NCBI GenBank assembly: GCA_950295325.1
Contig: OX485803.1
Coordinates: forward strand, 72,183,554-72,247,553
DNA length: 64,000 nucleotides
Reading direction: 5' to 3'
Source of the DNA: Polytrichum commune
Lineage: Eukaryota; Streptophyta; Polytrichopsida; Polytrichales; Polytrichaceae
Numbering within the stretch: position 1 is the first letter of the stretch; each line of letters opens with the position of its first letter. The position numbers and the translations under genes are program-made. The notes below the pieces were generated by a model. That model searched no databases. It saw only the letters and a program-made list of their open reading frames with translations, and was not told the DNA's origin. This document shows, one piece after another, positions 1,400-43,851 of this stretch.

Positions 1400-2489
1400 G
1401 TGTGGAGTGGATTTGTAGACCTAGGTTGATTTGCAGACATTTGGAATTCAGTGTTTACCATTGTTAGAAGCAATTTGTGAAACATTCATGACACTATTGG
1501 ATGAATATGATTTGGTTTTTGAACTAAATGATCATATTTGCGATGATCCTCGTATGATAAATATCAATATATTGTTAATGCCATAAATTTATGACTATGT
1601 TGAGTCAACCGCATGTTACTAGTTGCAGTAAACGCGCACAGTTGCAGCCTAATCATGCCACTTAGCGCAGTCGATATTCACTGCAGTACCAGTAATATAC
1701 ACTAAAGACATGTGAAGACCACATAACCTCACAACGTACAACAAAACACCAGAATTTGTTGTCTACATTACGTTACATAGTAATATAGATATCACGACTT
1801 CAAGTAAAAAATATATGCCAACTAAATATGTATTCACTCTTGGTAGTCACAGACATTTACTACGTACAGTTACACATACACTTGGCAATATCATGTATAC
1901 TTCACTGCTAGTAATACACAAAAAAAACATTCGTGAACCACATGACCTAACAACGTAGATCATAAACCACTGGTTGAGGTAAACATCACTCCAGACAGTG
2001 ATGTTTACATGACGACGTGAAGTAAGAAAATATGCAGTTGTTGTATGTATTTACTACCTAAAGTCAAAGAAGCTAACTACGCAACGTTATTGACTACCCA
2101 CTTGGTTGTCCGCGATTACTGTATGTATACGCATTTTTCATTGTATTACTTTGTTCAGTGAAGTAAACAAAACCTTACATGACTAGTGCCCGTGATATTG
2201 TATCACTTCGTTGAGTTATATGGACGTGTGTCGTATCTTACTTATATTGCCAAAATATAGTGAAATAGGACATGACTCTATGAAGTAAGGCACGCGTCGC
2301 AAGTCTAACTTCACTGCCATTGGGAACGTATCCATTGGGAACGTCCTGTCTGATATTCCTTTACTGCTTGTCCGGAGCGACTGGTCGTTTTCCACGTCAG
2401 TAAAGTCCTGGTTTTCTCACTTGTATGAGTTGGAAAACCCAGTTGTAAAAGACGTGTTTTGTAGTAGTGTTGGAAGGTTGGAAGGAAAA
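1400..2489. other. Spacer, no gene seen
   Basis: AT-rich, with repeated short TACGTA, CAGTAGT and GTAAACA words but no sustained reading frame. It may be remains of the same element as the small ORF at 1097. Confidence 0.55.
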
Positions 2490-3151
2490 TATACGAACGC
2501 ACATTCGTGTATCATTGATACATTTTAGTACCTACGACTACCTATAAGTAGGTCAACGTGGATCTATGTCTAATGATCTACTTACGAACGCACGTTCGTA
2601 AACCACTCGCATCACAAGAACTTAGGTGCGCCTGTATCTCGAAAGAAATATATACGAACGCACGTTCGTATATCATTGACAATTTTCATGCCTCTGACTA
2701 CATATAAGTAAATCAACGTGGAGTATGTCTAATGCTCTATTTACGAACGCACGTTCGTAAACCAATCACATTACACGAACTTAGGCGCCCTATATCTTGA
2801 AGGAAATATATACGAACGCACGTTCGTATATCATTGACAATTTTCATGCCTCTGACTACATATAAGTAAATCAACATGGAGTATGTCTAATGCTCTACTT
2901 ACGAACGCACGTTCGTAAACCATTCACATCACACGAACTTAGGTGCCCCTGTATCTCGAAGGAAATATATACGAACGCACGTTCGTATATCATTGACAAC
3001 TTTCATGCCTCTGACTACATATAAGTAAATCAGCGTGGAGTATGTCTAATGCTCGGTTTACGAACGCACGTTCGTAAACCACTCACATCACGTGTCTGAG
3101 CCTCTTGTGCATATGCTACCAACTCATCTTTACGAACTTGCGTTCGTAAAG
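2490..3151. repeat. Tandem array of 159-bp units, each with two palindromes
   Basis: Four units start near 2490, 2651, 2809 and 2968 (spacing 161, 158, 159). Each unit holds two copies of the palindrome TACGAACG-CA-CGTTCGTA. The first is flanked by TATA on both sides (2490, 2651, 2809, 2968); the second is flanked by TT/AA (2582, 2740, 2899, 3058), about 90 bp later. A ninth copy with TT in its centre arm lies at 3130-3151. The centre dinucleotide is CA in the eight array copies. The first copy has decayed (CATTCGTG). Confidence 0.93.
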
Positions 3152-4069
3152 GTCCGGTATTTGCGGCGGTATATACGGGTATGTGCAGACTATAGTGTAC
3201 CTGGGAGGTATAGGGTGGGCGCACAAGAAAATGGCTTGAGCTCGTTCCAGTCAGGTCTGTGGAGCGCATACTTGGATGTGCCGCAGAAAAGAGCTCTGAT
3301 GTGGGGGGAAAAGCTTTAAGTATCTTCCCCCTGATGGTTCAAAATCCCTTGGATGCTATTTAAAAAGAGGATTCCCGCCGCCTACTTTGACCTAACAATA
3401 TGTCATTCCATCCATGCGGATATATATAAATAGCATTATGTATGGAGCATGTCTTGCATGCACGCAACATATTGTAAATATGTCAATCGGTCGCACACCT
3501 TAGTTGTTACCAAGGTCTCACGAGAATATATGTCTATATAATTTTTATATTATATTATATTATATATACACATATATATAATATTAGATACATAATGTCT
3601 ATATAGGTTGATGGTTAACATTGAGTTTTAAATGATTTGTGACTAAGGTGTGAAGTCCAAGTTAATTGACGATTGATTATACCTAATAAAGTGATGAAGG
3701 GTTTAGGGTAATACATATTCACACATACAATGAGGTAAGAGTGGCTAAGAACATATTGTGGAAACCCCTAAAATTGTAGGTATCATATGATTCACATTAA
3801 AAAAATGCCCGTAATATGGTCATCAAGTGCATGAATACCAATAAAAAGTCGCTTAATCCATTATGGCTTGTACTAGGTAGATTGATGACATTTTGAACCA
3901 ATCTTACCCAGTATATGTAGGTAAGGTCTTCATTCAAATGTAACACTAGGTTTGAAAATAATGAATTAAAATGGCATGATTGGAAATGATCAATCACTTT
4001 GGAACGGTGCATACGATAATGATAAGAATTGAAATCATACCTACGTGAAGTCACACTTACAATTATTAA
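3152..4069. other. Spacer, no gene seen
   Basis: AT-rich and without coding signal. It contains a (TATAT)n-rich patch near 3540-3580. Confidence 0.6.
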
Positions 4070-4300
4070 TATGTGTTTGACGTCCTATGGGAAATAAAAT
4101 TTCCCCCACCTCTTGTAAAGGTTTAGGATAGCCCTCGCCACAATCTGAAATTGAGTCCTTTATCCGATAAATATTTATTTAAGGAACCATTGAACACCTT
4201 GAAAGATATATTGTCCATGAAAATTTTATATTTTAAAACACCATATACACATCCTTGCGGGTGGATTCTTCATTTGAATCCACCCCCTACACTCGAGGCT
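4070..4300. repeat. Dispersed repeat, intact copy (empty site for the 5.2-kb element)
   Basis: This stretch matches 5063-5234 continued by 6978-7010, with many substitutions. Shared landmarks are TTTCCCCCAC, GAACCATTGAACA, TTCATGAAAA/CCATGAAAA, AAAACACC and GGTGGATTCTTCAT. Here AAAACACC runs directly into the downstream part, whereas the second copy is interrupted exactly there by the element at 5235-6972. Confidence 0.8.
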
Positions 4301-5062
4301 CGCCAAACATCGGACCATATTATGAACTAATATAAGTTTAAATGCAATTTATCATTGGTGAAATTAAAAGTTGATGGCACTAGTATTCGTTTGTTAGTTC
4401 AAGTCGACAACTAATTAAATGACTTCACCTCCTATTGGAAATTCATTTATCCTCCACCATGGTGTGGAAATGGATAACTAATTTGGAATGGTGCATACAT
4501 TAGTATGCACTTACAATTATCTGTTTATATTATTTGCATCCTACAAGAAGTATGTGCATGACCATAGCTTAAACTGTTGATTTAAACCAAAGTCTTAAAC
4601 CATTCATGTTATAATAAGATTAAGTATGCATTGTGTGATCAAATTGCACTCAAAACTATATACTAAGGTGAAAGGGCTAGCATTCTAAATTTCCCTCTTC
4701 ACCTATTAAGCCAATGTTTTATCTCAAAATGACAATTACTCGCATGAGTCTAGATTATTATAGTTGCTATGAACCACATAAAGCAATTTCCAATTGAACC
4801 AACATTGGTTTACCATTTTGACATGATGCCCATAGACCACAACATGGCCTTATATAAGAAAGGTTGGTAAGATAAAAAGATGTAGGGTTTAGGGGTTAGG
4901 GTTTAGGGTTTGGGGTTAGCGTATAGGGTTTGTGAAAGTTATCTAGGTGGTTTGTGGGCTTAGGATTTATATCGTTAGTGATACTTAGTGTACTATGCGT
5001 TCGTATTTAGAGTATCTAACACTAAATATCATATTAAGGGTGGGTCAAGCTAACACCTCATG
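4301..5062. other. Spacer with telomere-like patch, no gene seen
   Basis: No coding frame stands out. The only notable content is the telomere-like patch at 4885-4932. Confidence 0.6.
4885..4932 (+). repeat. Interstitial telomere-like repeat (TTTAGGG)n, degenerate
   Basis: A run of TAGGGTTT-type heptamers (TAGGGTTTAGGGGTTAGGG and on) with one-base slips. This is the plant telomere unit; here it is short, impure and surrounded by ordinary spacer, so it is an internal remnant and not a chromosome end. Confidence 0.75.
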
Positions 5063-5234
5063 AAATTAATGACAACGTATTGAAAATTGAATTTTCCCCC
5101 ACTTCTTGAGGAGAATCAGATAGCCCCTCTCCACAATTTAAAATGCGTCCTTTATGTATGTCATATTTGTTTGAAGAACCATTGAACAACTTTAAGGATG
5201 TGTGGTTCATGAAAACTCTATCTTGCAAAACACC
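5063..5234. repeat. Dispersed repeat, second copy, left part
   Basis: Partner of 4070-4262. It ends in ACACC at 5230-5234, the 5-bp target duplication of the element that follows; the repeat resumes at 6978 after the second ACACC (6973-6977). Confidence 0.8.
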
Positions 5235-6972
5235 TGTGAGCCCAAAATGGTGCCCACATGTGGTGATTAACTCTTCGAAACCAATTTTAGTTTGACTTTC
5301 ATGTGTTATGATTATTCACAAAACATAAAAAGAGTGAAGTGTGGTTTGGATTTAAGTTTAGGCTTTAGAATGTGTTGTGTGATTATTTCAAGGTTGAATT
5401 CAATAAGAGTATGCCTTGATAATGTGAGTAGGGGGTAAGGTGAAGCAAGGTGAGCTCCGCGGGTTAAATGCCCACTTTTGGATCCACCTTGGTAGTTTAG
5501 GAAGAAGGAAGCTTGGTGGATGGGGATTAGTCCCTACTTTGGAGGAGAAGGTTAAAGGATTGTGATTGGGGGTGCTAATCCTCTCACCCTATCCTCACCT
5601 CTCTCTCCCTCTCTCCCTCTCTCCCTCTTTGCTACTTAAGGTGTTTTCTCTCTCATTTTCCTCTCTCTCCATCAAGCGCTCTCAAGGGAGCAAGCTCTTA
5701 GGAGCTTGAGCCACATGTGTGGGTTATTAGTTTTTAGTGAAGTTAATTAGTTAAGCTCTCTCTCAAGTTCTCTCAAGGGAGCGAGCTCTTAGAGCTTGAG
5801 GCTTTATGTGTGGAGTAGCTAGTTCTTAGTGAAGTTAGGAAGTTAACCCCCATCATAAGGAGGGGAAGTTTAGAATCATTAGACTACACCTATGGGTGAT
5901 TGTTAATTTGGCTAAATTAGTGGGACATGTTAGTCATTAGTTAGGGGACTAGGGGAATGCTTGATTAGACACTAGGTTAGAGGAGTGTGGTTATAATGAT
6001 TTTGGAACATCAGCCTAGTAGCTAAGGGCTGCCCAAACCACAGTCTGCTGGAAATACAGCTGCTGGGACTACAGCTTGTCGGGACTACAGTCTGTTGGAA
6101 ATACAGCTGCTGGACTACAGCTTGCCGGGACTACAGTCTGTTGGAAATACAGTTGCTGGACTACAGCTTGCCGGGACTACAGTCTGCTGGAAATACAGTT
6201 GCTGGACTACAGCTTGCCGGGACTACAGTCTGCTGGAAATACACCTGCTGGATTACATTTCTACTGGTCAACACCGAAGGTGCTCCAAATGCAGTGGCTG
6301 GTGGCAGCTAAGGGTTCTCAACTATGAAGCTGGTGGAGGAGCAGCTAAGGTGGCTGGGAGATTAAAGAGGGGCTTAATTAAGTGGCAGATGGTCCAGCTG
6401 GGGTTAAGTTGGGACCAAAGAGCCACCATGGTGGTTAGCTAGTTAGGGAAGGGAAGGAATTGAATTAGGTGCTATAACCACCAATTGTTGGAAGTTAATG
6501 GGGCTAAAGACACTTAGTAGTTGGCCCAATTTATAAACCAATAGATAGGGGGGTAGTCACATTAACCTAAGTAGGGGCATGAGTGGTGACAAGCAGTTGA
6601 ATTGAGAGGCGGTTACAGAGAATAGCGTTTTTCAACGCTTACATCTTTTTAACCAACTAAATCAATTACGCAAGTGATGGAGGATGTCAAGGACCCTTGT
6701 CCCCAACCCATGACGGAGGTCAAGGTAAAGAGGACGAGGGGAATATCCTTGAGGGCGTGCGTGGCCAAGGCCGCGGGTTGGACTCTTGAGACAGCCAACA
6801 CTACCCCAAGCCAAGAGGCTAATGTTAATAAAGCACAATGATTCAAATCCACATGCACTCTCTTGAACATGAGGGTCACTTCGCATTTGTTTTTAAGTTC
6901 TAGGCAACACATGTGATCCTCAAAGCCATCACCCGGACTAGGACGCTTAAGGGTGGTGGGTTTGGCCTCACA
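5235..6972 (-). mobile_element. TG...CA element, copy A (solo LTR or non-autonomous element), 1738 bp
   Basis: It begins TGTGAGCCCAAAAT and ends TTTGGCCTCACA, so the outer 12 bases are near-perfect inverted ends. It is flanked by direct repeats ACACC (5230-5234, 6973-6977), and the paralogous empty site at about 4230 has ACACC once. The right end is clearly related, in opposite orientation, to the left end of the element at 59192-60554: both contain TCCTAGTCCGGGTGA about 35 bp from the end. The interior has CT-rich tracts, a 46-bp tandem repeat and no protein-coding frame. TG...CA ends with a 5-bp duplication are typical of a long terminal repeat left by LTR-LTR recombination; a non-autonomous DNA transposon is the alternative. 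The strand is set relative to the copy at 59192. Confidence 0.8.
6035..6265. repeat. 46-bp tandem repeat inside copy A
   Basis: GGGACTACAGTCTG recurs at 6081, 6127, 6173 and 6219, so the unit is 46 bp. It includes CTGGAAATACAG and CTACAGCTTGCCGG. Open frames across it come from the missing stops of the repeat and are not taken as genes. Confidence 0.9.
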
Positions 6973-7484
6973 ACACCATCTACACATTGGGGTGGATTCT
7001 TCATCGAAAACCTACTAAATGACATGCATTGTGTTGTACAAATTAACTGAACATACTTTTCTAAAATATGTTTACAAGGAATCCAACTGTAGAGGTATTA
7101 AGGGGAATGTAAAATTCATGTTCCCGAACTAAGCTCCCACCATTTCGTATTTCTTATTTCCTAAACCCTCATGCATCCATCTCCCCATGCTATTCCCTCA
7201 TCCCCCCCATGTCCCTCCCCATCCCCATCCCCCACCCCCATCCCCATCATCCCCATCCCCATCCTCATCCCCTCCCCTCCCCCTCCCCTCCCCCCTCCCA
7301 GCCCTGGCCAGTGGCCGCCGCCATGAAACCCTAGCGGTGCCGGGTACCTCCCCGCGCCTCTTCCTTTCCTCCTCATTTGTCATTTGGACCAGAGGAGGAG
7401 GGGAGAGCTTAGGTGTGGCGAAGCCCTTGCCATTTGTGGCGCCGCATATTATATGTTTTCTTTGACTCGCATTGTCAGAAGCTT
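6973..7484. other. Spacer with C-rich minisatellite
   Basis: After the repeat resumption (6978-7010) no gene is seen. From 7195 to 7300 there is a strand-biased run of CCCCATC/CCTCCC units; frames through it (His/Pro or Gly/Asp rich) are low-complexity artefacts. Confidence 0.65.
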
Positions 7485-7752
7485 GAGAGTAGGATCGCTT
7501 GAGAGGGTGAGAGTTTTAGAAAGCTTGAGAGGTTGAGAGTTTTAGAAATCTTGAGAGGTTGAGAGTTTTAGAAAGCTTGAGAGGTTTAGAAAGCTTAAGA
7601 GGTTGAGAGTTTTAGAAATCTTGAGAAGTTGAGAGTTTTAGAAAGCTTGAGAGGTTGAGAGTTTTAGAAATCTTGAGAGGTTTACAGTTTTAGAAAGCTT
7701 GAGAGGTGGAGTGTTTCAAAAAGCTTGAGAGTTCCAGAAAACTTGAGTTTTA
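7485..7752. repeat. About 26-bp minisatellite
   Basis: The unit resembles AGGTTGAGAGTTTTAGAAA followed by GCTTGAG or TCTTGAG. About ten copies with substitutions and small deletions. Confidence 0.88.
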
Positions 7753-8263
7753 AGGGCTTGTGAGTTGTGTGTACATCAGAATATTTGTAGGATTTGTATA
7801 TAAGTTCTGAAGGCTTGAGAGTGTGAGAAAGGAGCGAGGGTAGAAGATTGCATTTGAAAGTGAAGTCAGTGCATTTGTGAGGTTTCTGGTTTCTGAGTAG
7901 CAGGCAGCAGGTTTTGTGTGTGCAACAATTCAATGTGAGTACAACTTTCCTTTTCAAAACACTTCTTTGCAATATGAAATTCTTCTTTGTTGAATTACAT
8001 GTGTTTTGTTTTATGCATTATGAGCTTTGGCATGTTTTGTATGAATTAGGACTTTCCTCTTCATTATGAATTCCCAATCATTGAATCTGAAATTTTGTTG
8101 TGATTCCATATTGGACTTTGTGTTTCATCATTCTGATCAAGTGTTGCAGGCAGAAATCCAACCCATGTTGATTGCAACATTCATAAACCCATACATACGT
8201 ATTCGTATGTATACGTATATGTTTATGTACGGACAAAGCATTTATTATCATACCCACACATGA
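7753..8263. other. Spacer upstream of the palindrome cluster
   Basis: No convincing gene. It could include the promoter and first non-coding exon of the gene whose coding part starts at 8701, but no core promoter is recognised. Confidence 0.5.
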
Positions 8264-8672
8264 CCACATTTACGAACGATCGTTTGTAAATGTGGCGTGT
8301 ATACATCTAATACACCAACCCCTCTACTTTTACGAACGTGCGTTCGTAAAATACGCACTCACCCTATACATTTGCTAATGTGCGTTCGTAATTGACTAAA
8401 TAAGGAACATCATGTAATTGCGAACGTCCGTTCGTAAGTACACAGTAATCACACATCAATATCCTAAATTTACGAACGGTCGTTTGTAAACAGGGATGCA
8501 AACATACCCAGGATTTACGAACGTGCGTTCGTAAATCCACAAAGAGGCATGGACATAAATATGTACATCCAATAACTAATAAAAAAATTATTCTCAAAAA
8601 CGATCCCCGTACCTTTTGATTGCACCATATGAACATCAAAGCAAGCAGAAATACGAACGCGCGTTCGTAAAT
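8264..8672. repeat. Cluster of seven palindromes upstream of the 8.7-kb gene
   Basis: Copies of TACGAACG-NN-CGTTCGTA and decayed forms at 8264-8295 (centre AT), 8328-8353 (TG), 8371-8395 (left arm decayed), 8415-8442 (TC), 8468-8490 (GT), 8511-8538 (TG) and 8649-8672 (CG). Spacing is irregular. Several have arms that extend beyond the shared core with copy-specific bases: 8264-8295 is a 32-bp palindrome with one mismatched pair, and 8511-8538 is a perfect 13-bp-arm palindrome. Three copies show CGTTTG in place of CGTTCG or similar, as expected from CpG decay. Confidence 0.93.
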
Positions 8673-8700
8673 GCCATTCTGAAAGTGTCTTATATTGCAG

Positions 8701-11700
8701 ATGGCTAGACCAGGCAGGAGCGCAATTGAGATGTTCGCATTACAGTTGGATCGCCTTCCGGAGTCAGTGACAGATGACAATGGCAACGACAACTACGTCC
8801 CCAAAGATGACTTCATCGGGGAGTGGACGGCGCTCCCCGAGAAAAGTGATGACGGATTGTTCGTCCTTAGGTTCACATACGAGTTGGAGACAAGGCCAGA
8901 CCAGCCTGAGCAGTGGGTGCAGATGAAGACCTGGGGGATAGAGTCTATAGAGGCACATGGTGATTTTGTCATTTTGGAAATGAAGAACAAAAAAGACAAC
9001 ATCAACCTCCTGCTCGACTTCAGGAGACACCCTTTCTCCCATACATACGCACAGAATAATATTGTAGAGGATGCAAAGCATTTTGACCTGATTAACCTCT
9101 TCACGAAGTACAGCCTCGGCCAGCATTGGACTGCCAGGAAGCTCACTGCACTAGCCCTGAACATTTCCAAGTATAACAGTGCCGTCGTCGAGGCTAACAA
9201 GAAGAAAAAGAGTCCAAAAAAACCTACTGCATCCGGAGCAGGAGGTTCCAGAAGTGCGCCGCGGCCAGTGCCAACTGGTAGCAGATTGACAGAAGGGCCA
9301 AGCAGACACTCCACGCCATCTAAAAGAACTAGGGACGACATGGAGAAGTATGGTGTAACGGAGACCGCGGAGGTCAACTCGCCGCCTGTCATGCCGACTC
9401 CTTTGAAAAAGGGAGAAAACCCTGATGCTGCAAAGGCGACTCGTATCCTTTGAGACTTCAACAATTACTCGAAGGATTGCTGGCCCATGGGACGGCACTT
9501 CACCTTCAACGTGGACTGCTTCAGATGCGAGAAATCCCCGAACAAGTGGGTGGTGAGGTCACGTGAAAGCGGGGGTGTGAAGTGGCAAATAAATAACTTG
9601 ATGAACAATGTGAAGTGGGATAGGCAAACAATGTGTGTTATGCCAAAATGTTTCACTTCCCGTCCCACGGAAAAGGATTGGGCATGAATCCAGAACGGGG
9701 AGTTCTGGATTATTGATGGACAGCACAGCTTGGAGGCTTTGCAAATCATTCTAAAGGACGATAACTTCCAGCATGAGCTCAAGGGGGACCTGCGCTACTG
9801 GAAAGCGTTCCTGGTCTGGTCTGACGACTGGGACAAGGTCCGGAAAATTTCGACATTTCTGAATTCCGGAAATAAAATCAAGGCGTTTGAAGCGTCGTGG
9901 GCAGCGAACATAGTGGCTGCAAGAGACGTGTGGGTTGCACATGGGTGCCCACCAAAGGAGAGGGAGAATGCGAAAAACCAGTCTCCACAATGGAAGGTAA
10001 GTTTACGAACGAGCGTTCGTAATTCTCATGTTCATTTTCAACATTCTTCATCATTATATTTACGAACGTGCGTTCGTATTTAGATGCCCACTGACATTAT
10101 TTTCTTCTAATGCAGGCGTTTTGCGATGCGATGGTAGATAAATTCTCTTCCATCGACATGAAGTCCACGTCAACGAAGTCGGTGCTGGAGCTGAAGGGTG
10201 AGCTCCGGCTTATTTGTTGTAACATAGACACCTGGGATTTGTGGACCCAGTTTTTTGATGCTCACAGTGCGGGGGATCTCGTCAACTCCGACACTGAAGA
10301 AAAATATAACAAGGAGAAGAGTGGGGAAGCCCCTCCGCTGCTGAGGGAATTTTTCAGGCCGCTTCAGGGGTTGACAGAGTCCGAATTGCAGAGATGTGCA
10401 GTGCATGCTCTTGGGAACACCATCGGGAGAACAATCCCCTACCCGAAGATTTTTTTGAAGAGGCCAAAGCACAGGCCCGGAACGTACGCCATCAAGGAGT
10501 GGTGCGAGCATCGCAAATTGAAGACTAACGCAATGAGGGAGTTGGGCGCACTCGTCCCGGAGTACAAACTCTTCCAGGCCGACGGAGACATCAACTGGGC
10601 TGGATGGAAAGAGTTCAAGGTCGGCTACAACATCAACGGCTCTTCCATGCGTAGTCTAGTTAAGGAGCACGCCTCCGTTTTAAAACTGAAGGGGAACAAG
10701 CGGACCAAGAAAATAGAGACAGATCCCTAAGAGGTGGAGTTGTATATAAAGTTTTTGGAGAGGAAGCGGAGGGCCACATTCGAGGGAGTGGCCAGATTTT
10801 GTTTGGTAACCACCGGGCTGGAGAGGATCACATTTTCTAAGTGGGATGGCACCATCAGCAAGGCCGAGGTGAGGGAGGACCGCAGGGGTTGCCCATTTGC
10901 CCTGATTGATTTCAGGGGGATCCCAGGAGGTGCGAGGCAAGGGGGAAAGGATTTGCCCTTCTATAACCCTTTCATGGCAAAGTTTCAAGACTACAAATCG
11001 CCTACCATGAGGGAGCCTCACGTATGGCTTTGGATAGTTGAACAAGAGAAGCTATCCATTGTGACGGAGTTGTACGAAAATACCATCAAGTTTGAATACA
11101 ACATCTACCATAGCACCTACGTGCCCACAAAAATAGAAGGGATCATGGCCATCAACGAGGCCAGGGGCAACAAGCAAGTGGGAGCTATCAGCCTGATCTT
11201 CTTGACATACAATGCACTCATGCATGGGAGAGCGCCTGTGAAGGCAAACAATACTTTCAAGAAGATATACAGTATTCCTCACCCCCCTCCCAAGGAACTG
11301 TTGCAGGAGACACTGTACACTATTTTCCCCGCGTTGGAGCTCAGGTTGGAGTTCTACGTGTCAGTGTTGCAGAGCTTGGCAATCAGTGGAGAGACTGTCT
11401 ACAACATCTTTGGAGGCAGCAAGTTCATGTACGCGGCCATGGTAAGCTCTCCTTCGATTTACGAACGCTCGTTTGTAATGTTCATTGAGCTAGATGTTAA
11501 TAGTTGCCAATGTTTTTCTGTGGGTTGATCTTCATGTTTTTGTTTACGAACGCGCGTTCGTATATGCTGACATGATTGCAATCGTTGCTACAGATGTTGG
11601 GGTTGTGCGTGAATAGCTACATTGACGCCCAGGACGAGGAGGAATACCAAGTCCACAGGGTGAAGGCTTCCACAATGGACCTGCACGACATGGGTGTCCC

Positions 11701-13194
11701 AAGGAGGATTTTAGCATGCCCGTCGACAAAGGCATGCCGGGCATGGAGATAGACGATGACGAGCCCGCCCCTTCCGTGGACGTAGACGTGGACGCCATCC
11801 TGCAGTCCTTCAACATCGCTCCTTTACGGATTTTGGCGCCAACGGGTCATCCTTCTGACCCCCAAGGGACACCGGGGGGCTATACAGGATCGTCGGCTGG
11901 GACCACCCAGGATGTCCTCCCCTCTAGAGTGTCTGGTGCGGAACCCTTCGGCACGCCTGGAGGCTGCTCGACTTCAGTATCTCCTAGGCCCGTCGTCGTT
12001 CCGAGGATGGAGACCCTCGACCTCCTCGACCAACGCTCGCGTCCATCCTTGGACCTCTTCCGGAACACGAGGAGGAGGATGAAGAAGACGCCGTACGTGG
12101 AGTTGCCTGAGGGAGCAATCATCGAGGTGTCCGACAAGGACGAGGGCGACATGGACATCATGGCGGAGCTGGGGGTCGATTACGACAAGAACAAGCGGGT
12201 GAAGGAGGAGGCACTGACTATTGCCGAGCTGAATGCCAAGCTAGAGCAAAAAATGAAGGAGGAAATGGTGGTTGCGGCAGAGGAGAGTGCAAGAAATATG
12301 GCCCGCATGCAGGAGGCGCTGCGGGAGTCCGCAGCAAAGACGGACGCCATATTTGAGATGCTCAGAAATATGCAGAGCTTCTCGGTGCCAGCACAACAGC
12401 CTTACCCCTTCCCCAGAGGATACCCCTCCCATACCCCCCCTCCAGGCCTGTTCCCCGGAGGACCGTTGCACCCACCAGCACCACACCCAACGCCAGCTGG
12501 GAGTCCTCCGCCCCCTCAATTGACTGCCACCCCCGTCAACTCGCACGATGCGATAAGGGCTGCCATACGCGAGGACGAAGATTTACGAACGCGCGTTCGT
12601 GAATCTTCAGGTCCGGCAATCCTAACCCCTCTCCCTCCAAGGGTAGGACTGGCCTCAGTCACTGCCACCGCCTCTTTGACAGTGGTCCCGAGGGTAGTGC
12701 ATAGGCAGGGCGATGAATCTGCGCAACACACTGACATGGTCATTGTGGAGGAAACGCAGGGGAGCCCCAATGACGCTGGAGCTGTCCAAGGAATGGACGT
12801 TGAGAGCCCTGACTTGGAACGGCATCCATCCGCGGAGATGGAGGATGTCCGCATGGACACTCTCGACCTGGGCGGAGACGACGACGACGACGACGCGGAC
12901 CACATTATGCAGACCCAGGCGTCACAGTCAGAGCGTGCCACAGATGCCATGGAGACAGAGGCGGCTGGCCAAATGGGGATTACGAACGCGCGTTCGTTAA
13001 TTGAAGAGGAGGGAACTGCTCGGTCCAGCGCCACTGCCCCTCCCCCCGATGACGAGGTAACTCTCCTCTGAGAATACCACTCATTTGATGAACGCGTGTT
13101 CGTAACCACTAACCCATGCGCGTTGTGTTCTTGGCAGTTCCTGTCCATCAGCATCACGAGGCGTGCGAGGACCCTTCTCTACGTGGACCCTTAG
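8701..13194 (+). pseudogene. Multi-exon gene with DGQH/ParB-like motif, in-frame stops
   Basis: Four exons fit: 8701-9996, 10116-11441, 11594-13056 and 13138-13194 (TAG). Introns 9997-10115, 11442-11593 and 13057-13137 have GTAAG/GTAAC donors and CAG acceptors. TATTGCAG lies just before the ATG, so an upstream exon may exist. The frame would give about 1380 aa. Visible parts: a Lys-rich linker (KKKKSPKKP, near residue 166); WIIDGQHSLEALQII (near 337), which recalls the DGQHR/ParB-type motif; a helical Glu/Lys/Met-rich stretch (genomic 12200-12370), then Pro-rich and acidic tails. In-frame stops are TGA 9451, TGA 9685 and TAA 10728, all one C-to-T from Arg or Gln codons; a one-base frame shift lies between about 11600 and 11712. 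Function unknown. Either a recently dead member of a repeated family or a gene needing sequence correction. The block is markedly GC-richer than its surroundings. Confidence 0.6.
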
Positions 13195-13505
13195 CCTGAT
13201 AAATTTTGTAGAACACGGCATGTATTTGCCATAGGAAATTGTGAAAAATTATCACGTGAGACAAATTGTAAATATTCACGGAATTAATATATGAGCAGAT
13301 GATCTCTGCGTCGCATCTCCCAAACTTATTGTATCGTATCGCATCTTGTATTATGTATGTTCATGCGCATCATTACACTTTCACGCCCACTTTCACCCTC
13401 CTTCACGAACGAGCGTTCGTACATGTGCTTCTATCCGTGCTCACGAACGAGCGTTCGTAAATGATGCGCCACCCCAGCCTTCATTCACGAACGCTCGTTC
13501 GCAAG
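10001..13505. repeat. Ten palindromes in introns, exons and 3' flank of the gene
   Basis: Copies at 10002-10022 and 10059-10080 (intron 1), 11456-11478 and 11541-11562 (intron 2), 12577-12608 and 12978-12999 (exon 3, in frame), 13088-13105 (intron 3, decayed), and 13403-13422, 13443-13462 and 13483-13502 (3' flank, TTCACGAACG form). Centre dinucleotides vary: AG, TG, CT, CG, CG, GT, AG, AG, CT. In the two exon copies the palindrome is read in different frames, giving LRTRVRE and TNARS. Confidence 0.93.
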
Positions 13506-13618
13506 TCTGCACTTGACCACATTCTCCTTGCACTATTTTCCTTGCATAATCGTCTTTTCCTTAATGCAATGTTATTTATTGGATCATAGAATTAAACTAG
13601 TCGAGTTGTTAATCACAG
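13195..13618. other. Spacer or intron between two coding blocks
   Basis: Holds three palindromes and ends in the acceptor-like AATCACAG before 13619. It may be 3' UTR plus spacer, or an intron if the blocks on either side belong to one transcription unit. Confidence 0.5.
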
Positions 13619-14386
13619 GATCCCCCGGAGATAGGCCGGAAACCCTCGACCAGTGGACGTCTTACCCGAAACAAACCGTTCGTCGTGTTCGACCTGAACG
13701 GGGTGTTGTGTCACACCGAACACATCCCCCGGGTCTCCACGCGTCCCTTCCGTCACCCCGACGAAAGGGACTACGACGGAGAGCTCGACACTCTCATTAA
13801 CCGCAAGGCTGTTCGCGCCCGTCCCGGCCTGCGTGACTTCCTTCGAGAGGTGCTCGATGTAGCTCACGTCATTGTGTGGAGCTCCATGGTCATGGAGAAC
13901 ACCGAGCCAATCGTCGACTTCCTCTTCCGCGATCTTCCGAGCCCTTGCCTCATCCTCGGCAAAGAGGATTGCGATGAATTGCTTGACGAAAAGGGTATGC
14001 CGGTTCCAAAGTTCGGCGGTCGTGGTGGAGGATAACAATTCCTCAAGGTCCTGAGGTCAAGACTGTGGCGGGGCATCCCCCGGCTGCAGGGGGTACCCCA
14101 CGGGTGGTGGCCGACCCCCGAGAACACCGTCCTCGTCGACGACAGCCCCACCAAAAGCGTCTTGAACCCCCCGGGGAACGTCATCTTCCCCGCCACTTGG
14201 ACCGGCGATAGGAACGACGCGTTTTTGGTCGATACGCTAGCGCCTTACCTTAGAAGGTTTGTTGTCCACGCCGGTAGCATACCATTTTTTGTTAGGTCCA
14301 ACCCCATAGGCAATGTGGGTTTAAGCCCCCGTGATAATGTATTCAAGAGCATCATGAGGCTCGCCAAACTCAATAAATTGATTTGA
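13619..14386 (+). pseudogene. FCP1/NIF-like (HAD) phosphatase-domain protein, one in-frame stop
   Basis: The open frame after an AATCACAG acceptor reads KPFVVFDLNGVLCHTE, then a long domain, then ENTVLVDDSPTKSV, and ends at TGA 14384. This is the FCP1-homology (NLI-interacting factor) fold of the HAD superfamily: nucleophile Asp in DLNGV, then W-S-S-M in place of the second motif, then the VDDSP motif with the acidic pair. The usual DxDxT/V has its second Asp replaced by Asn, so classic phosphatase activity is doubtful. A TAA at 14033-14035 interrupts the same frame just before QFLKVLRSRLWRG; CAA to TAA would explain it. About 250 aa in all. It follows the 8.7-kb gene on the same strand and shares its GC-rich base use, so the two may travel or be transcribed together (inference). 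Confidence 0.65.
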
Positions 14387-14498
14387 AATGCCTCCATGTC
14401 TTTGCTTTGTATCATGTGGTTCACATTTACTAATGCTTGCTTCGTTTTTGGATGTCTTTTGTTGTTGTGATTGTTGTTGTTGTTGTTCTTGCCCATAG

Positions 14499-15433
14499 TT
14501 TGCCCCCATATGCGACGCCCCTGTGGTCGACAGCCCTTCCCGTCCCCTCTCGCCCCCTGCCTCCCCTTCCCGCGACGTCACGGACTTCCAAATGCCATCC
14601 CTCTACCAGTTCTCGGCGGTCGACGCGGCCTCAGCCGTGGATTACTCCCGCGACGTCGGCGTCGTCAACAGCCCGCCCCCCGCACTTGTCGCCCGCGCCT
14701 ACGCCCCGTCGCCCTCCCCCCTCTCCAAGGAGAAACGGACGCTCGTTCGTTTGGGGCACCTCTCGCCCTCTAGGGACGAAGGCGTCGCTCGTCGCGGGCC
14801 GAGCCGGCGTCTCCGCATGGACTCCACCCCCGCCGACCCCGTTCCTCCCCCCGCAACGTCCTCCGCGATCGTGGGCCCTCCACGCCTCGACTCCCCCCCA
14901 CCTTTCAACAGTGCAATAGTCGACGCCCCACTCGTTCCCCCCGTTCCCCGCATGGACGTCCCCAAAGCCAAGGTGCCCTCCTCAACCCTAAACCCCTTTC
15001 CCGCTTTTGCTTTCCTTGTCTTCCGTGTGCATGCCGTTCTCTTTACGAGCGCCCATCCCAAACCGCCCTCATTATTTTCCCCACTCCATTCCCATTCTTA
15101 TCTTCCTATGACGTTGTTTCGCAGGTGGCTACCCGCTCGCTTGGTGCCCGGCCCTCCTCCACGTCCTCCTTGGATAGGCACGCCCTCAAGGCCGCATCTT
15201 CCGAGTCCGATCGTTGTCTGGCCCTCCGGAGAAGCGCAAGACGTTCCCTTTCGCAAACGCCCTCATATTCTACTTATAATACCACCTCGTACAATTTGGG
15301 AGTGCGTCCTGAAACATGCAAGAACAACACATATTCCTGTCCAGGCAACACACAAGGATACAGTCGTGGGCCTGAGATTTTTAGAGCCATGGAGGCCGCC
15401 AAAAACAAGGACTTAGCCGCAAAAAAAAAATAG
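14499..15433 (+). CDS. Pro/Ser-rich unknown protein, two exons visible
   Basis: Two in-phase blocks: 14499-14972 after a T-rich tract ending CCCATAG, and 15125-15433 after TTTCGCAG. The intron starts GTGCCC, so the donor is weak. The first block is rich in Pro, Ser, Ala and Arg; the second begins VATRSLGARPSS and ends in a Lys-rich KDLAAKKK before TAG. No domain is recognised. It could be the 3' part of the FCP1-like gene just upstream, since both are phase 0 and close, or a separate gene. A worn copy of the palindrome (ACGGACG-CT-CGTTCGT) sits in the coding frame at 14735-14752. Confidence 0.4.
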
Positions 15434-16179
15434 TGGGTCGGACTAGTGTGACTAGAAGCGTACTAGTGGGACGGACTCCCTAAATGGGCTTAGGTGTAGA
15501 ACATATTTAAGTGCTTACTTTCTATGCTATTCCAAGTTAGTCAAGACATTGATGGTATTTCCATTATAATTGTATTTCAATCCCAATTAATTCATTCAAC
15601 TTCCATTCATTCTTCACATCTTCCCTTCCATTCATAACGAGTTGTCATTTCATACACAACTATTTTCATGTATGCCTCACATTTTTGTTCACTTCCATGC
15701 CTTTATGTATAATAATAGTAGCATACCATTATACATATGGGATTTTTAGTCGTCATTACTGGTCCAATTTTGAAATGTGCATCCTTATATAGTCTCATAA
15801 TCAACAAAAAATCTCCAAATACCGAATATAGTGTTAATTATAAATTTTACCTTAAACGAATTAAATTGACCTTTTTTTTTTAATCTCAAATGGTTTTTTA
15901 AAGTTTGGATAGTCACCTCCCCGAGCTCTAGAGTATGCTGCAACTTACCACACCAGGGTGGGAACATATTTTTGTGTGAGAATGGATTTATATACAATAA
16001 ATTTGAAAAGGTAATTTTGTTACAATTCTTAATGTTGATGAGTCCACACACTGCAAGGCCCTGACATGTAAGTGAAATCACCCTTTCATCCATTTTTTTT
16101 GGTGTTTTTCTACTTCATGCCCAATTATAGCAATATTTCCAAATTTTTCATTGACCGAATCCAATTGTTGACCTTGTAG
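15434..16179. other. Spacer, no gene seen
   Basis: AT-rich, with no sustained frame. It ends in TGACCTTGTAG, a possible splice acceptor for the coding-like block that follows. Confidence 0.6.
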
Positions 16180-16957: not shown

Positions 16958-17237
16958 TAGTTTCCATTAAAATGAGAGTATGTTAAGCTGGGAAATCGAC
17001 TCATTTAGTTCGACTCAACCTAAATTGACAACATATTGTCCTCATTTAGGTCAACTCAACCTAAATTGACTAACATATTGTCCTCATTTAGGTCGACTCA
17101 ACCTAAATTGACTAACATAATTATCCTCATTTAGGTCGACTCAACCTAAATTGACAATATATTGTCCTCATTTAGGTCGACTCAACCTACATGAGTCGAT
17201 TTCCCAGCTTAACATACTCTCATTTTAATGGAAACTA
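16958..17237. mobile_element. MITE/foldback element with 47-bp perfect inverted ends
   Basis: The left end TAGTTTCCATTAAAATG... is the exact reverse complement of the right end for 47 bases (16958-17004 and 17191-17237). TA at each outer edge would fit a TA target duplication as in Tc1/mariner-type MITEs, in which case the element proper starts at GTTTCC. The middle is a 43-46-bp tandem repeat (about four units), each unit with its own small inverted repeat TTTAGGT...ACCTAAA around GTCGAC-like bases. No coding capacity. Confidence 0.9.
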
Positions 17238-38728: not shown

Positions 38729-39454
38729 ATGGATTTGCGGCTGAGAGAAGTAACATGGTTGCGCCTGCTCTCGTTGTTGTTGTGGACCATCCTTATGATG
38801 CTGAAGCGTGGGATTACTCAGCTGATCGAGAGAATCGAGGAGAGGGTCTTCGAGAGGAGTGCACATCCTGTGAGCGAGAGAAATCAAGAGGGAGAGATAG
38901 AGGAAAGGACACTACTTCCCCCTCTGAGCGATGAATTGGTGCTTGGACGGATTTGGCCTTTCCTTCACCGAAGGGTGGACATCTCGCTCCTGTGGAGATT
39001 GAGAAGAGTGAACCGTGCCTGGAGAGGAAAGGTAGCTGGGTCGTTGGAATGGGCGGCGTTAGAGGTGGTCAGAGTGGATACGCCAGGTTTGACCCGGTAC
39101 CTCGAGGAGCGGCAGGAGCGACGTCCTCCACTACGAGAGAGAGTTGAAGATGAGTTGCGGGCGATTACCGTGTTGTTTTCGGAGAATCTTGCAGAGCTTT
39201 CTTCACAGTCGGCGTTCCTGCGGGTGGAGATTGGTGCAAGCAGAGCTGATGCAGGAACTTGTAGTTCGACAGGGGATAGGGTCGAGTTCGACCGTTCAAA
39301 TCTGGAAATTGGATGCCCTTGTTGTGGAGAAATGTACCACTATAGTGGAAGTGAGAGTGAACAGGGTGAGGAGGTAGGGTTGAATGAGTCGTGGAGTTCT
39401 ACCTCCGAGAGCTCACTGAGAGTGTTCTTTCCTCGTCATACGGTGAGGGTCTGA
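38729..39454 (+). CDS. Antisense ORF in the young Copia, F-box-like protein, 241 aa
   Basis: An ATG-started open frame on the strand opposite to pol, between pol and the 3' LTR; it overlaps the last 19 bp of pol tail to tail. The N-terminus (MDLRLREVTWLRLLSLLLW) is hydrophobic. Residues about 68-110 (PPLSDELVLGRIWPFLHRR, DISLLWRLRRVNRAWRGK) resemble an F-box: L-P/S-D-E-L-x-x-x-I-W-P, then L-x-x-L-R-R-V-x-R-x-W. A CPCC motif and an acidic Ser/Glu tail follow. F-box proteins link substrates to SCF ubiquitin ligases; whether this one does so is unknown. An intact 241-codon frame in a young element suggests a real, captured gene, but it could also be chance openness in a GC-rich region. Confidence 0.6.
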   Translation: MDLRLREVTWLRLLSLLLWTILMMLKRGITQLIERIEERVFERSAHPVSERNQEGEIEERTLLPPLSDELVLGRIWPFLHRRVDISLLWRLRRVNRAWRGKVAGSLEWAALEVVRVDTPGLTRYLEERQERRPPLRERVEDELRAITVLFSENLAELSSQSAFLRVEIGASRADAGTCSSTGDRVEFDRSNLEIGCPCCGEMYHYSGSESEQGEEVGLNESWSSTSESSLRVFFPRHTVRV

Positions 39455-42400
39455 GAGTTGATATGGCTGCGAAGGTGAAGTCTCTTGCGGCAGCCTTCAA
39501 ACTTAGTTCTTCCGAGAGATTTTGTGAGGATGTCAGCGGGTTGTTCCTGAGAGGGAATGAACTCAACTTTGATGATGTTTTCTTCAACTTTCTGTCTAGT
39601 AAAGTGGAAGTCGATTTCGAAATGCTTGGACCTCTCATGAAACACTGGATTGTAACTGAGCTTGATGCTGCTCTGATTGTCGCAATAGAGATGAGTCGGC
39701 TTGTTGTCAAGAATTTTTAGCTCTCCTAGAAGTCTTCGAATCCATACAGCTTCGCATGAGCACTGAGCGAGAGCTCTGTACTCGGATTCGCATGACGATC
39801 TTGAGGTGCTTGACTGTTTCTTGGAATTCCAGGAAACAGGAGAGTTCCCAATAAAGAAGATGTATGCACCCACAGATATTCTGTCGTCGATGTCTTGGCC
39901 GTAGTCGGCGTCGGTATACCCGTGAAGGTAATTCTCCTCCCCTTGTTTGAAAAACAAGCCTACATCGGGATATCGACGCACGTATCGAAGAATGTGTTTG
40001 GCCGCTTGTAGGTGAGCTTCGCGAGGTTCCTGCATGAACCGGCTGACCACACTCACTGCATGTGTTATGTCAGGTCGGGTTTTGGTTAGGAAGAGTAATT
40101 TACCGACGAGCATCCTATAGATTGTTGCATCAACAGGGGGAGTATCGGAAATCCTAGACAAGACTAGACCCTCGGGAAGAGGAGTGTACGCTGGAGTGCA
40201 GTTGTCCATACTGAAGAGAGTGAGAATACTGAGGGCGTATTCGGTCTGATGCATGTGGAGGCCCGTGGGAACTTTGTCGAATTGCACTCCGAGGTACCTG
40301 TGGAGGGAACCAAGATCGTTGGTCTTGAAAGTGCGTTGTAGGTGATGCTTCAATTGAGTGATGAGTCGGATATCGCTCCCGGTGATGAGGATGTCATCGA
40401 CGTATACTAAGAGAGCGATGGTTTGATTGTGGATATGAGCAAAGTAGAGGTTGGGATCGGCATGGGATTGAATTAGCTTCCAGGCGAGGAGAGCAGTATG
40501 AAGTTGGGCATACCAGGCACGAGGACTTTGCCGCAGTCCATAGAGAGACTTGTGTAATTTGCAGACGAGGTGTTCGGCTCCTCTTCGAATAAATCCAGGG
40601 GGCTGATGCATGTAGACTTCCTCTGTCAGAATTCCATTGAGGAAGGCGGTTAGCACATCGAGTTGATGTATAGGCCAGTTGAGATGTGTGGCTATGGCAA
40701 GAAGGATTCGAATGGTCTCCCATCTGACCACAGGTGCGAAAGTGTCAAAGTAATCAACGCCATTTTTCTGCTCGAAACCCCTGGCAACCAACCGGGCTTT
40801 GTATCGGGGAGGAGTGCCGTTGCTGCTTGTCTTTACTTTGAAGACCCATTTGGAGGTAATGGCTTGCTTGTGAGGAGGGAGAGCAACCAGCGTCCAGGTG
40901 TTGTTGCGATTGATGGAGTCAATTTCCTCTTGCATGGCCGCCTGCCAAAGAGGGTTGGTATGGGCTTGTTTGAAGGTGAGCTCAGACATGAAGTCAGGTG
41001 GAGTTTCTGAGGAGGTGAGCTCGATATTGGCGGCGAAGTCGTGAAGATGACGCGGGAAACGGCGAATCCTGTCGGAGCGGCGAGGAATGATGTGTTCCGT
41101 CGGTGCTGTACTGGGAAGTGATGACCCTGGGAGGTGATCCGTAGAAGCGCTCTCCGGAGATGCAGGCAAGTTGGGGAAGGAAGCAGCTTCGGAGGCAGAT
41201 GGAGTGTTGTCGGTTGCAGGAGTTTGTGGATTGTCGGAGTCTGGTGGAGTGTTGAGAGGCAGTAGTTGAGTGTCGGAGAGCAGATGTTGAGTTTCTTGGG
41301 AAACAAGGAATGGTAGGTTTTCTAAGTGGGTGGGTGCGGGTGTAGAATCGCTGGGAGGGGAAGAGAGGCAATCGGGTTGCTGAGTGAGGTCAACCTGGCT
41401 GTCTTCGTCGATGAAGAGGTCCCTGGAGATGAAGATTTTCTTTGTGGAGGGGCGATAACATCTATAGGCTTTTGCCGCCTCGTCAAAACTAAGTAGTATG
41501 CATTTTTCAGCACGGGGATCTAACTTAGTTTTTGAGGGTTTCGAGACATGAGCGAATACAGGAGATCCAAAAATGCGGAGGTGAGCGATAGTTGGTTTCT
41601 TACCAAGGAAGAGTTCGTTTGGTGTTTTATCGGGGTAGCGTTTCGTTGATCGAAGATTTAGTATGTCGCCCGCGGCCTTCACTGCTTCTGCCCATAGGTG
41701 TCCCGGTAATCCTTTATCCAGGAGCAGACATCTGGTGATGTCTAGTAGAGAGCGATTTCGCCTCTCTGCAATGCCATTTCTTTGTGGTGTGTAAGGGGGA
41801 GTCAATTCATGAGCAATCCCTTTTAGGGAACAAAAGGCTGAGAAGGCCTTTGAAGTGTACTCTCCCCCGTTGTCGGTGCGGAGAGCTCGAACGGTTTGTC
41901 CGGTGGAGTTCTCGACCGAGCGGATGAAGTGCTGGAACTTGTCAAGTACCTGACTCTTTTGGGATATGAAATATACCCAAATTTTTCGGGAGAAGTCATC
42001 TGTGAAGGTAACGAAATATTTCGCTCCTCCGGTGGAGCAGATCCTGAACGGTCCACAGACGTCGGAGTGGATTAGTTCGAGGATTTTTGATGCTTGGAAG
42101 GTGGCGATTTTGGGTAATTTCGTCCTTGTATGTTTGCCGAATTTGCATCCTTCACAGGTCTGTTTGGGAATCTGTATATGTGGCAGACCCTTGACTGCTT
42201 CGGAGGCGATCATCCTTTGCATGCCTCTTGCATGAAAGTGACCAAGCCTCTTGTGCCATAGCACAGCTTGGGAGCGCAGATGGAGAGAGTTAACTTCGGG
42301 TTTGGAGTTGAAAGAGTGACCCTGTATTCTGTAGAGCCCTCTGCCGTTTTCTCTTTGGGCGAAGGCTTCAACCCGTGAAGTGGCATTGTCGAGCACAAAA

Positions 42401-43851
42401 CACCCTGTGTTTTTGAAGATGAGGGTCTTGTGTTGATCTGTTAGGGATCCAACACTGAGCAAGTTTTTAGTAATACCCGGCGTGTAAAGCACAGAAGAAA
42501 TGGTTTTTATTTTGCCAGATTGAGCTTGTATTTCTACATTGCCGACTCCAGTCACATTGTGACTATGACCTCCTGCAGACCGAATCTGAGATCCGCTAAC
42601 TGGACGAATTGCGGAAAACACACTAGAGTCACCTGAAACGTGGTGAGTAGCACCCGAATCGAGGTACCAGGAAGAGTTGTTCTGTGGTGTCTCTAGCATG
42701 TTTAATTCAACTAAGCATGCATCTACTACCTGGTCGGCTAGGAGATCTTCAGTGTCTTCTTCGAAGTCCTCTTGCTGCTCTTCAATGTTGTGTGCCTGTC
42801 CGTTGATGGTGCGGTGCCGTCTCTCTATCACCCTGTGTTCGTAATCTTTTATGCGATCTAAAATGGATTTGAGATCGCATTCTCTCTCAAAGTGTCCCTC
42901 TGCTCCGCAGAAGTTGCACTGATTATTCCTAGGTCTCTCAGATCCCCTAGGTTTAAATCTTGGTTGATAGGAGCCTGCACTGTTTGTACCTCTTGCGGTA
43001 TGTCCGAAGCTTGTGGCTGGTCCCTGGGATCTCGGTGTCGAAGATCCTCCCTGAGTCGTTGAGTTCGGGAATCTGGGATTGGATGTTCCTCCGGTGTCGA
43101 AATGCCTTCGAGGGTGATGTCTGGTGTTCGGTGCAGGGTGGCCGAACCTAGTACCATGCGGGGGTCTTCTCGAATTGTTGCGGTGTATGAATAGGGCCTC
43201 TCCTTCTTCCTGTTGCTGTCTTTCCATCTTGATGAAGGTTTCTTCGGATATCAGCTTGGCCTCCAGTTGTTCATATGTCGGAAGTTTTTGGGCTGCGGTT
43301 TGCATCCTCTTGAAGATCTCGTACTCTTTTGGCAGGTTCTTCAAGGTGTAGTAAACAATGATGTCCTCCGGAATGACTACCTCAACTTCTTCGAGGAGAT
43401 TCGCTACTTCTTTGATTTCTGTGAGATGTGCATCCATAGACACAGATTCAGTTTTGCGAAGCGCAAAGAATTTCTCTATTAGCATGACACGTCTAGGTCC
43501 GCTATCCGATTCGTATCTTGTCTTGAGTCCCGTCCAACATTCGTAAGGGTCGTTGTATCTCCGAAGGATTTTGAGAGCGTTGTTTTTGGCATTACTGTTG
43601 ATAATGCTCAAAACTTGTTGTCTGGCTGTCCTCTCCTCCTCGCCCATGATCTTACTCGGAGCTGTGATGCAGTAGTGGAAACGTCCGTACTTCAGCAGCA
43701 AGTTCTTGATTCGATAAGCCCAGACTCCAAAATTTGCTCCTCCTTCCAAGTGGTAGTTTTCGGGTAAGCTGGTATCCCCGGTCATGGTAAGATGCCGTCT
43801 AGGTCCATCGCTTAACAGACTACTCTCGGTCTCTAGACTAATGGTAGTCAT
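39436..43851 (-). CDS. Copia gag-pol polyprotein, 1471 aa, intact
   Basis: One uninterrupted frame. The order is the classic Copia one: gag (UBN2-type, residues 30-230), CCHC knuckle CNFCGAEGHFEREC (about 310), aspartic protease WYLDSGATHHVSG (about 395), GAG-pre-integrase HHCC zinc finger (LWHKRLGHFH...CEGCKFGKH, 530-590), integrase core with D-D-E (HSDVCGPF, RTDNGGEY, GIAERRNRSLLD), reverse transcriptase (SKWVFKVKTS, FAPVVRWETIRILLA, LDVLTAFLNG, LLVYVDDILITGS near 1150) and RNase H (HGYTDADYGQD, SSCESEYRALAQCS, LYCDNQSSIKL, PADILTKSL). All catalytic motifs are present. The start lies about 70 bp inside the primer-binding site. Confidence 0.97.
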   Translation of the reverse strand: MTTISLETESSLLSDGPRRHLTMTGDTSLPENYHLEGGANFGVWAYRIKNLLLKYGRFHYCITAPSKIMGEEERTARQQVLSIINSNAKNNALKILRRYNDPYECWTGLKTRYESDSGPRRVMLIEKFFALRKTESVSMDAHLTEIKEVANLLEEVEVVIPEDIIVYYTLKNLPKEYEIFKRMQTAAQKLPTYEQLEAKLISEETFIKMERQQQEEGEALFIHRNNSRRPPHGTRFGHPAPNTRHHPRRHFDTGGTSNPRFPNSTTQGGSSTPRSQGPATSFGHTARGTNSAGSYQPRFKPRGSERPRNNQCNFCGAEGHFERECDLKSILDRIKDYEHRVIERRHRTINGQAHNIEEQQEDFEEDTEDLLADQVVDACLVELNMLETPQNNSSWYLDSGATHHVSGDSSVFSAIRPVSGSQIRSAGGHSHNVTGVGNVEIQAQSGKIKTISSVLYTPGITKNLLSVGSLTDQHKTLIFKNTGCFVLDNATSRVEAFAQRENGRGLYRIQGHSFNSKPEVNSLHLRSQAVLWHKRLGHFHARGMQRMIASEAVKGLPHIQIPKQTCEGCKFGKHTRTKLPKIATFQASKILELIHSDVCGPFRICSTGGAKYFVTFTDDFSRKIWVYFISQKSQVLDKFQHFIRSVENSTGQTVRALRTDNGGEYTSKAFSAFCSLKGIAHELTPPYTPQRNGIAERRNRSLLDITRCLLLDKGLPGHLWAEAVKAAGDILNLRSTKRYPDKTPNELFLGKKPTIAHLRIFGSPVFAHVSKPSKTKLDPRAEKCILLSFDEAAKAYRCYRPSTKKIFISRDLFIDEDSQVDLTQQPDCLSSPPSDSTPAPTHLENLPFLVSQETQHLLSDTQLLPLNTPPDSDNPQTPATDNTPSASEAASFPNLPASPESASTDHLPGSSLPSTAPTEHIIPRRSDRIRRFPRHLHDFAANIELTSSETPPDFMSELTFKQAHTNPLWQAAMQEEIDSINRNNTWTLVALPPHKQAITSKWVFKVKTSSNGTPPRYKARLVARGFEQKNGVDYFDTFAPVVRWETIRILLAIATHLNWPIHQLDVLTAFLNGILTEEVYMHQPPGFIRRGAEHLVCKLHKSLYGLRQSPRAWYAQLHTALLAWKLIQSHADPNLYFAHIHNQTIALLVYVDDILITGSDIRLITQLKHHLQRTFKTNDLGSLHRYLGVQFDKVPTGLHMHQTEYALSILTLFSMDNCTPAYTPLPEGLVLSRISDTPPVDATIYRMLVGKLLFLTKTRPDITHAVSVVSRFMQEPREAHLQAAKHILRYVRRYPDVGLFFKQGEENYLHGYTDADYGQDIDDRISVGAYIFFIGNSPVSWNSKKQSSTSRSSCESEYRALAQCSCEAVWIRRLLGELKILDNKPTHLYCDNQSSIKLSYNPVFHERSKHFEIDFHFTRQKVEENIIKVEFIPSQEQPADILTKSLGRTKFEGCRKRLHLRSHINSQTLTV

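Follow-up and report, generated by a model that had tools for sequence, protein, structure and literature searches.

The 64-kb stretch of Polytrichum commune DNA analysed here (the window, C1:72183554-72247553) contains a CpG-rich palindrome repeated in two blocks, both of which lie in the right-hand part of one copy of a large DNA transposon bounded by terminal inverted repeats (TIRs). The features of this copy are given below in window coordinates, gene A and gene B being two genes of the element.

2470..15835, plus strand: right-hand part of one 16-kb TIR transposon copy, from blastn to sister copies B, C, D and G
2481..3091, unstranded: tandem array of block 1, a 159-bp unit with two palindromes each
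3130..3149, unstranded: final palindrome of block 1, with one arm change
8270..8670, unstranded: seven palindromes upstream of gene A (8272, 8332, 8374, which is decayed, 8420, 8472, 8517 and 8653)
8701..9996, plus strand: gene A exon 1, with stops at 9451 and 9685 and a DGQHS motif
9997..10115, plus strand: gene A intron 1, with palindromes at 10005 and 10062
10116..11441, plus strand: gene A exon 2, with an in-frame stop at 10728
11442..11593, plus strand: gene A intron 2, with palindromes at 11461 and 11546
11594..13056, plus strand: gene A exon 3, acidic and of low complexity, with frame breaks near 11700 and in-frame palindromes at 12585 and 12982
13057..13137, plus strand: gene A intron 3, with a decayed palindrome at 13088
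13138..13194, plus strand: gene A exon 4, tentative, from splice signals
13403..13504, unstranded: three palindromes between genes A and B (13405, 13443 and 13487)
13622..15413, plus strand: gene B, a NIF/CTD-phosphatase-like domain followed by a Ser/Pro-rich part, with a palindrome at 14735 inside
15823..15835, minus strand: right TIR, CGAATATAGTGTT

The palindrome has the consensus ATTTACGAACG-NN-CGTTCGTAAAT, with four CpGs per copy. The form ACGAACGNNCGTTCGT is present at 17 exact sites in the window against none in 100 shuffles, and 26 sites are found at up to two mismatches where 0.02 are expected: nine at 2493-3147 (block 1) and 17 at 8272-14750 (block 2), or 18 when an extra decayed palindrome at 8374, with three mismatches in the 20-base form, is counted. 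The rest of the 64-kb window has none at up to two mismatches. These values agree with the original prediction of a two-block repeat with no copy elsewhere in the 64 kb. Its description of the surrounding sequence as unrelated is wrong for block 1, which is a tandem array with a period of 159 bp, 3.8 copies and two palindromes per unit; the sites of this block are therefore non-independent and their flanks related. The centre dinucleotide, said to be variable, is CA in eight of the nine palindromes of block 1, and its variability holds across lineages, as given with the comparison of introns below. Block 2 lies in and around one gene. The observed/expected CpG ratio per 500 bp is 0.54-1.33 across 8001-15500 and 0.08-0.48 across 5001-8000.

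The array of block 1 continues to the left of 2490, with two more exact palindromes at -3767 and -3569. A 5.96-kb stretch from -3491 to 2469 has CACTA-type ends (CACTACTACAAA/TTTGTAGTAGTG) and, at the ends examined, the duplication TTG. Judged by these ends, it is an insertion interrupting the palindrome array, and a placement of block 1 outside the element, beside a CACTA end, was rejected on the ground of this interruption. A match to the element's left end at C1:72175867, 7.7 kb left of the window, is taken to belong to the window copy. This copy is degenerate: stops interrupt it at 9451, 9685, 10728 and 14033, and its frame breaks near 11700. Comparison by blastn also reveals an insert at about 5234-6969 that is missing from sister copy B; this insert adjoins a 73% direct repeat (4078-4242 and 5070-5234).

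When the genome was searched (407.8 Mb, 64 contigs), the exact palindrome was found 5602 times, compared with four for the reversed control. The excess over chance, whose absence the original prediction had named as grounds against it, is thus genome-wide. Genomic context was examined for 100 listed sites of the 5602, all of which fall in five loci (B-F, with 33, 17, 27, 3 and 20 sites), each of which has similarity either to the window element (blastn) or to the proteins it encodes (tblastn). On this similarity, copies or relics of a single element are present in all five loci.

Copies G and H of this element are 99.4% identical over 16.1 kb, and their flanks are unrelated. A 13-bp TIR, AACACTATATTCG ... 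CGAATATAGTGTT, delimits G, H and the shorter copy E. From the exact end matches listed (100 per end), 20 further plus-strand end pairs lying 15.7-16.6 kb apart were obtained, with AACACTATATTCG/CGAATATAGTGTT at both ends, as follows from the way they were chosen. A target site duplication (TSD) of 4 bp is present in 15 of these 20 pairs, and duplications of 2, 3 or 5-9 bp in none. The 4-bp duplication is also found in H (ACCT) and E (CATA) and is absent in G, giving 17 of 23 in total; the duplicated sequences are mixed (CCTA, TGAA, AGTG and others). By its ends and duplications, the palindrome-bearing element is a TIR DNA transposon of about 16.1 kb.

Genome-wide, the left end has 1459 matches with up to three mismatches and the right end 114 exact matches, with none in the control in either case. 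Exon 2 of gene A yielded 936 genomic candidates, of which 150 were scored and all were strong; among these 150, 18 carry a stop and 22 share one common bit score. Gene A matches are located on contigs C1-C7. The near-identity of the two 16-kb copies and the shared bit score indicate that the element has moved recently and many times, and so bear out the recent spread that had been proposed.

On the left side of copy G, two overlapping open reading frames (ORFs) lie on the minus strand, the C-terminal one encoding a DUF7869 protein (PF25273, E 4e-40). This protein is probably the transposase, its catalytic role being presumed; its best E-value against the PDB is 0.67. Gene A lies on the plus strand to the right of the DUF7869 ORFs, and its exons were set by splice signals. 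The NIF-type phosphatase domain of gene B has an E-value of 2.7e-16 in copy G and is accompanied by the stop at 14033 in the window copy. DUF7869 and NIF are the only Pfam families above cut-off on the element's proteins. Searches of gene A against Pfam, NCBIfam, PHROGs and the PDB returned nothing above threshold. Its lowest Pfam E-value, below cut-off, belongs to the coiled-coil-like HAUS-augmin3 in exon 3 (E 0.0011); the DGQHS motif of the window copy matches GmrSD_N (E 0.012-0.023) and DGQHR (0.045), both below cut-off, and exon 1 of copy G has no Pfam match up to E 1. A stretch of gene A resembles, by eye only, a degenerate motif I of class-beta DNA methyltransferases.

An endogenous giant-virus origin, which the high CpG content and the NIF phosphatase might suggest, was rejected, given that the TIR/TSD structure marks a transposon. 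Two pieces of gene A had no relative in viral contigs, its first 250 residues had no match in a phage tblastn search, and the palindrome TTACGAACGNNCGTTCGTAA was found in viral contigs as one site in each of four contigs, with no array.

The distribution of palindromes was examined in copy G, which has 31 sites (up to two mismatches) in its 16.1 kb and none in 3.9 kb of flank read. The intergenic array holds nine of them and the region upstream of gene A ten. Within gene A, introns 1 and 2 have two each, exon 3 another two and exons 1 and 2 none, and intron 3 together with the 3' region accounts for four. The remaining two are at the ORF start of the DUF7869 gene and in gene B. Density per kb amounts to 15.0 upstream of gene A, 16.5 in intron 1, 14.3 in intron 2 and 6.7 in the intergenic array. 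About 3 kb between the two genes of copy G (L054:7318-10000, window ~3150-8150) contain no palindromes and no closed ORF of at least 100 aa. This stretch is partly alignable between lineages, at about 67-79%, and is possibly a non-coding or regulatory part of the element.

Constraint was assessed on four palindromes in introns 1 and 2 of gene A, over all cross-lineage pairs of 29 sequences from five lineages; three of the 32 sequences were left out because their introns were not alignable. The four palindromes stay in place across the five lineages while the remaining intron sequence turns over. Between lineages W and '84' (36 pairs), identity is 97.9% in the arms, 75.0% in the centres and 48.8% in the rest of the introns, and over the ten lineage comparisons it is 94.6-98.5% in the arms and 48.4-89.8% in the rest. 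For one W-'84' pair, 259 of 442 third positions of exon 2 are identical. One arm consensus is common to all five lineages, and single copies differ from it by 0-3 of 56 letters. In exon 3, among unchanged codons, the third base is kept in 11 of 12 cases within palindromes and in 191 of 293 outside (one-sided p=0.047), which weakly favours constraint on the palindromes there. The sites examined belong to the element, and it is their arms, not their centre, that are preserved in the introns of gene A. Selection, one of the explanations first offered for the intact sites, is hence supported for the four intron sites.

The sites do decay in single copies, as had been noted. Over 38 sequences, 53 of 81 distinct arm changes are CpG transitions (C-to-T 28, G-to-A 25), and the palindrome at 11461 in the window copy carries a C-to-T that is absent from its nearest copies. 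An absence of methylation, also suggested at the outset, gains no support from this proportion, indirect though the argument is. Intact sites reflect youth and constraint.

These results lead us to favour, with moderate confidence, the reading that the palindrome acts in cis, as an internal site of this large TIR transposon, and is bound by a dimeric protein which is probably encoded by the element and regulates or protects it. As a symmetric dimer, the protein would contact both arms and leave the 2-bp centre free, and a centre that changes freely is as expected if the dimer touches the arms only. The binder would most likely be encoded by complete copies, as the product of gene A or the DUF7869 protein, and would coat the non-coding parts of the element; by analogy with VANC on VANDAL elements, such coating may activate the element's genes or prevent silencing of the element. 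The four CpGs per palindrome could render binding methylation-sensitive, and the sites in a copy would then decay mainly by CpG transitions. Copy E (L020-L021, C1:639070-648560) is a 9.5-kb derivative with both TIRs present, short NIF and DUF7869-gene remnants as its only genes and no gene A match. It nevertheless contains 33 exact palindromes, in arrays, often about 34 bp apart and with GG as the commonest centre; a cis signal used in trans would be expected to persist in this way. The dimer binding site that had been listed among several possibilities is thus the best reading of the data, as a putative site proposed from sequence comparison.

Several observations weigh against this reading. 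Gene A has no recognised DNA-binding domain and no Pfam match at cut-off, and AlphaFold models of exons 1 and 2 are unusable (mean pLDDT, the predicted local distance difference test score, 33.2 and 31.5). The constraint test covers four intron sites in related sequences, and for the closest pair of lineages (92 vs 89) the excess is small, with 94.9% in the arms and 89.8% in the rest. The version with one sequence per lineage (arms 56/56 for W-'84', 54-56 of 56 over all ten comparisons) used chosen sequences, excluding copies with arm changes. The sites are not strictly non-coding either, exon 3 having two, and gene B and the ORF start of the DUF7869 gene one each. Finally, the binder could equally be a host factor.

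Subterminal repeats of CACTA and hAT elements are used in the assembly of the transposition complex, and the palindromes may likewise be transposase binding sites, repeated for assembling such a complex. Their large number, their equivalence in both orientations and their retention in copy E, which lacks gene A, would fit this explanation. However, the palindromes are not subterminal: the nearest in copy G are 3.9 kb from the left TIR and 1.1 kb from the right TIR, and most lie mid-element and in the introns of gene A. We therefore regard it as unlikely.

Alternatively, the palindromes might be bound by a host transcription factor and serve gene A and the divergently oriented DUF7869 gene as promoter and enhancer elements. 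The dense arrays upstream of gene A and in the interval that separates it from the DUF7869 gene would agree with this. Promoter elements would less readily be expected at two per short intron or within exon 3, and we give this explanation a low probability.

A bolder proposal, drawn by analogy and rather doubtful, is that the element has its own palindrome-plus-protein system, unrelated to VANC. The gene A product, a large protein whose DGQHS motif is ParB/GmrSD-like and which has the methyltransferase-like stretch mentioned above, would bind the CpG palindromes, load at them or spread from them as ParB does from parS, read methylation and keep thousands of element sites active. If true, a eukaryotic DNA transposon would have independently evolved a methylation-aware means of recognising itself.

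It is very improbable that the palindromes act as RNA hairpins in element transcripts, for processing, stability or small RNA production. They could fold, with longer complementary arms at 8272, 8517 and 12585, and changes in the window copy looked G:U-preserving (9 vs 2, gene A strand), yet this preference was gone once more copies were counted. The similar numbers of C-to-T and G-to-A changes at CpG tell against it, as do the RNA pairs on the gene A strand, 42 of which are kept and 43 broken (distinct contexts being counted somewhat differently here). Double changes that preserve pairing were seen four times, but all are at CpG positions and they match the 3.3 expected at random (P of at least four = 0.42). 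Moreover, given one arm consensus in five lineages, the arms are not drifting by compensation. On these counts, RNA pairing is not the preserved property, and the hairpin RNA element that had been suggested is disfavoured.

That each palindrome is a mobile mini-element spreading through the host element and the genome is hardly credible: lineage '84' alone has one palindrome more in intron 2, within the longer symmetric stretch ATGTTTACGAACGCTCGTTCGTAAACAT, which would suit such spreading, but the lineages have their intron 1, intron 2 and exon 3 sites at common positions, none of the 100 listed sites lies outside the five element loci, and array growth accounts for much of the palindrome number, so that the palindromic mini-transposon of the original prediction finds no support and the palindromes are passengers of the 16-kb transposon in the loci read.

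Returning to the element-encoded binder, there are to our knowledge few cases of a transposon whose own protein reads a motif repeated within it, VANDAL/VANC being the case in point. VANDALs are Mutator-like elements (MULEs) with 9-bp TSDs, as opposed to the 4-bp TSDs observed here. In the sections of PMC5735166 that describe it, VANC21 induces methylation loss and binds the 9-bp YAGTATTAY in the introns of VANDAL21 and in its intergenic and terminal non-coding DNA, and VANC targets often form tandem repeats. The likeness is that of a DNA transposon with a short motif repeated in intergenic, terminal and intronic non-coding DNA, partly as tandem repeats differing between lineages, as far as the descriptions in PMC5735166 and PMC10398659 extend. 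Copy G likewise has its motif repeated in non-coding regions, including introns. By the same description, VANC motifs are 8-9 bp (YAGTATTAY, AGTTGTCC and AGTTGTAC; PMC5735166), whereas the palindrome is long, symmetric and has four CpGs.

The classification of the element was also considered. In the relevant part of PMC3627910, some Sola2 families have TIRs of 12-13 bp, 4-bp TSDs and extra captured genes, and Sola1 is listed for Physcomitrella in PMC9033089, in the portion concerned. The present element shares the 4-bp TSD and short TIR with Sola, compared by description only, but its TSDs are mixed while those of Sola2 are described as AT-rich (PMC3627910). The TIR AACACTATATTCG includes CACTA, as in CACTA (En/Spm) elements. 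AA precedes CACTA and TT follows TAGTG in G, H and E and in 20 of 20 end pairs (selected for having such ends); therefore, no duplication directly adjoining CACTA is possible. Unlike the 3-bp TSD directly beside CACTA of that group, a 4-bp TSD is found outside the AA/TT, and the palindromes are internal rather than subterminal. The possibility that the motif was a known subterminal repeat of a described transposon, raised at the outset, thus holds in that it belongs to a transposon and not in its position. Literature searches returned no description of the palindrome (among the matches listed for the motif string, none concerned a plant repeat by title), and no paper on DUF7869 or on a bryophyte transposon with an NLI interacting factor.

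The SOS box of Streptomyces venezuelae LexA, given as tCGAAC-N4-GNNCGa in the part of PMC9380542 concerned, resembles the palindrome, in letters only, in its half-site CGAAC and its 4-bp spacing to GTTCG. No LexA-like domain was found by Pfam in the ORFs scanned.

Elsewhere in the window, an open Ty1/copia polyprotein of 1471 aa with gag, integrase and reverse transcriptase domains lies at 39439-43851 on the minus strand, and a 41-bp tandem repeat (4.5 copies, 93% matches) at 17000-17189.

The motif described here is a long, symmetric, CpG-rich palindrome whose consensus is the same in lineages with otherwise divergent introns. Given that it belongs to a young family with more than 1000 recognisable left ends, its approximately 5600 natural sites make selfish recognition directly testable.

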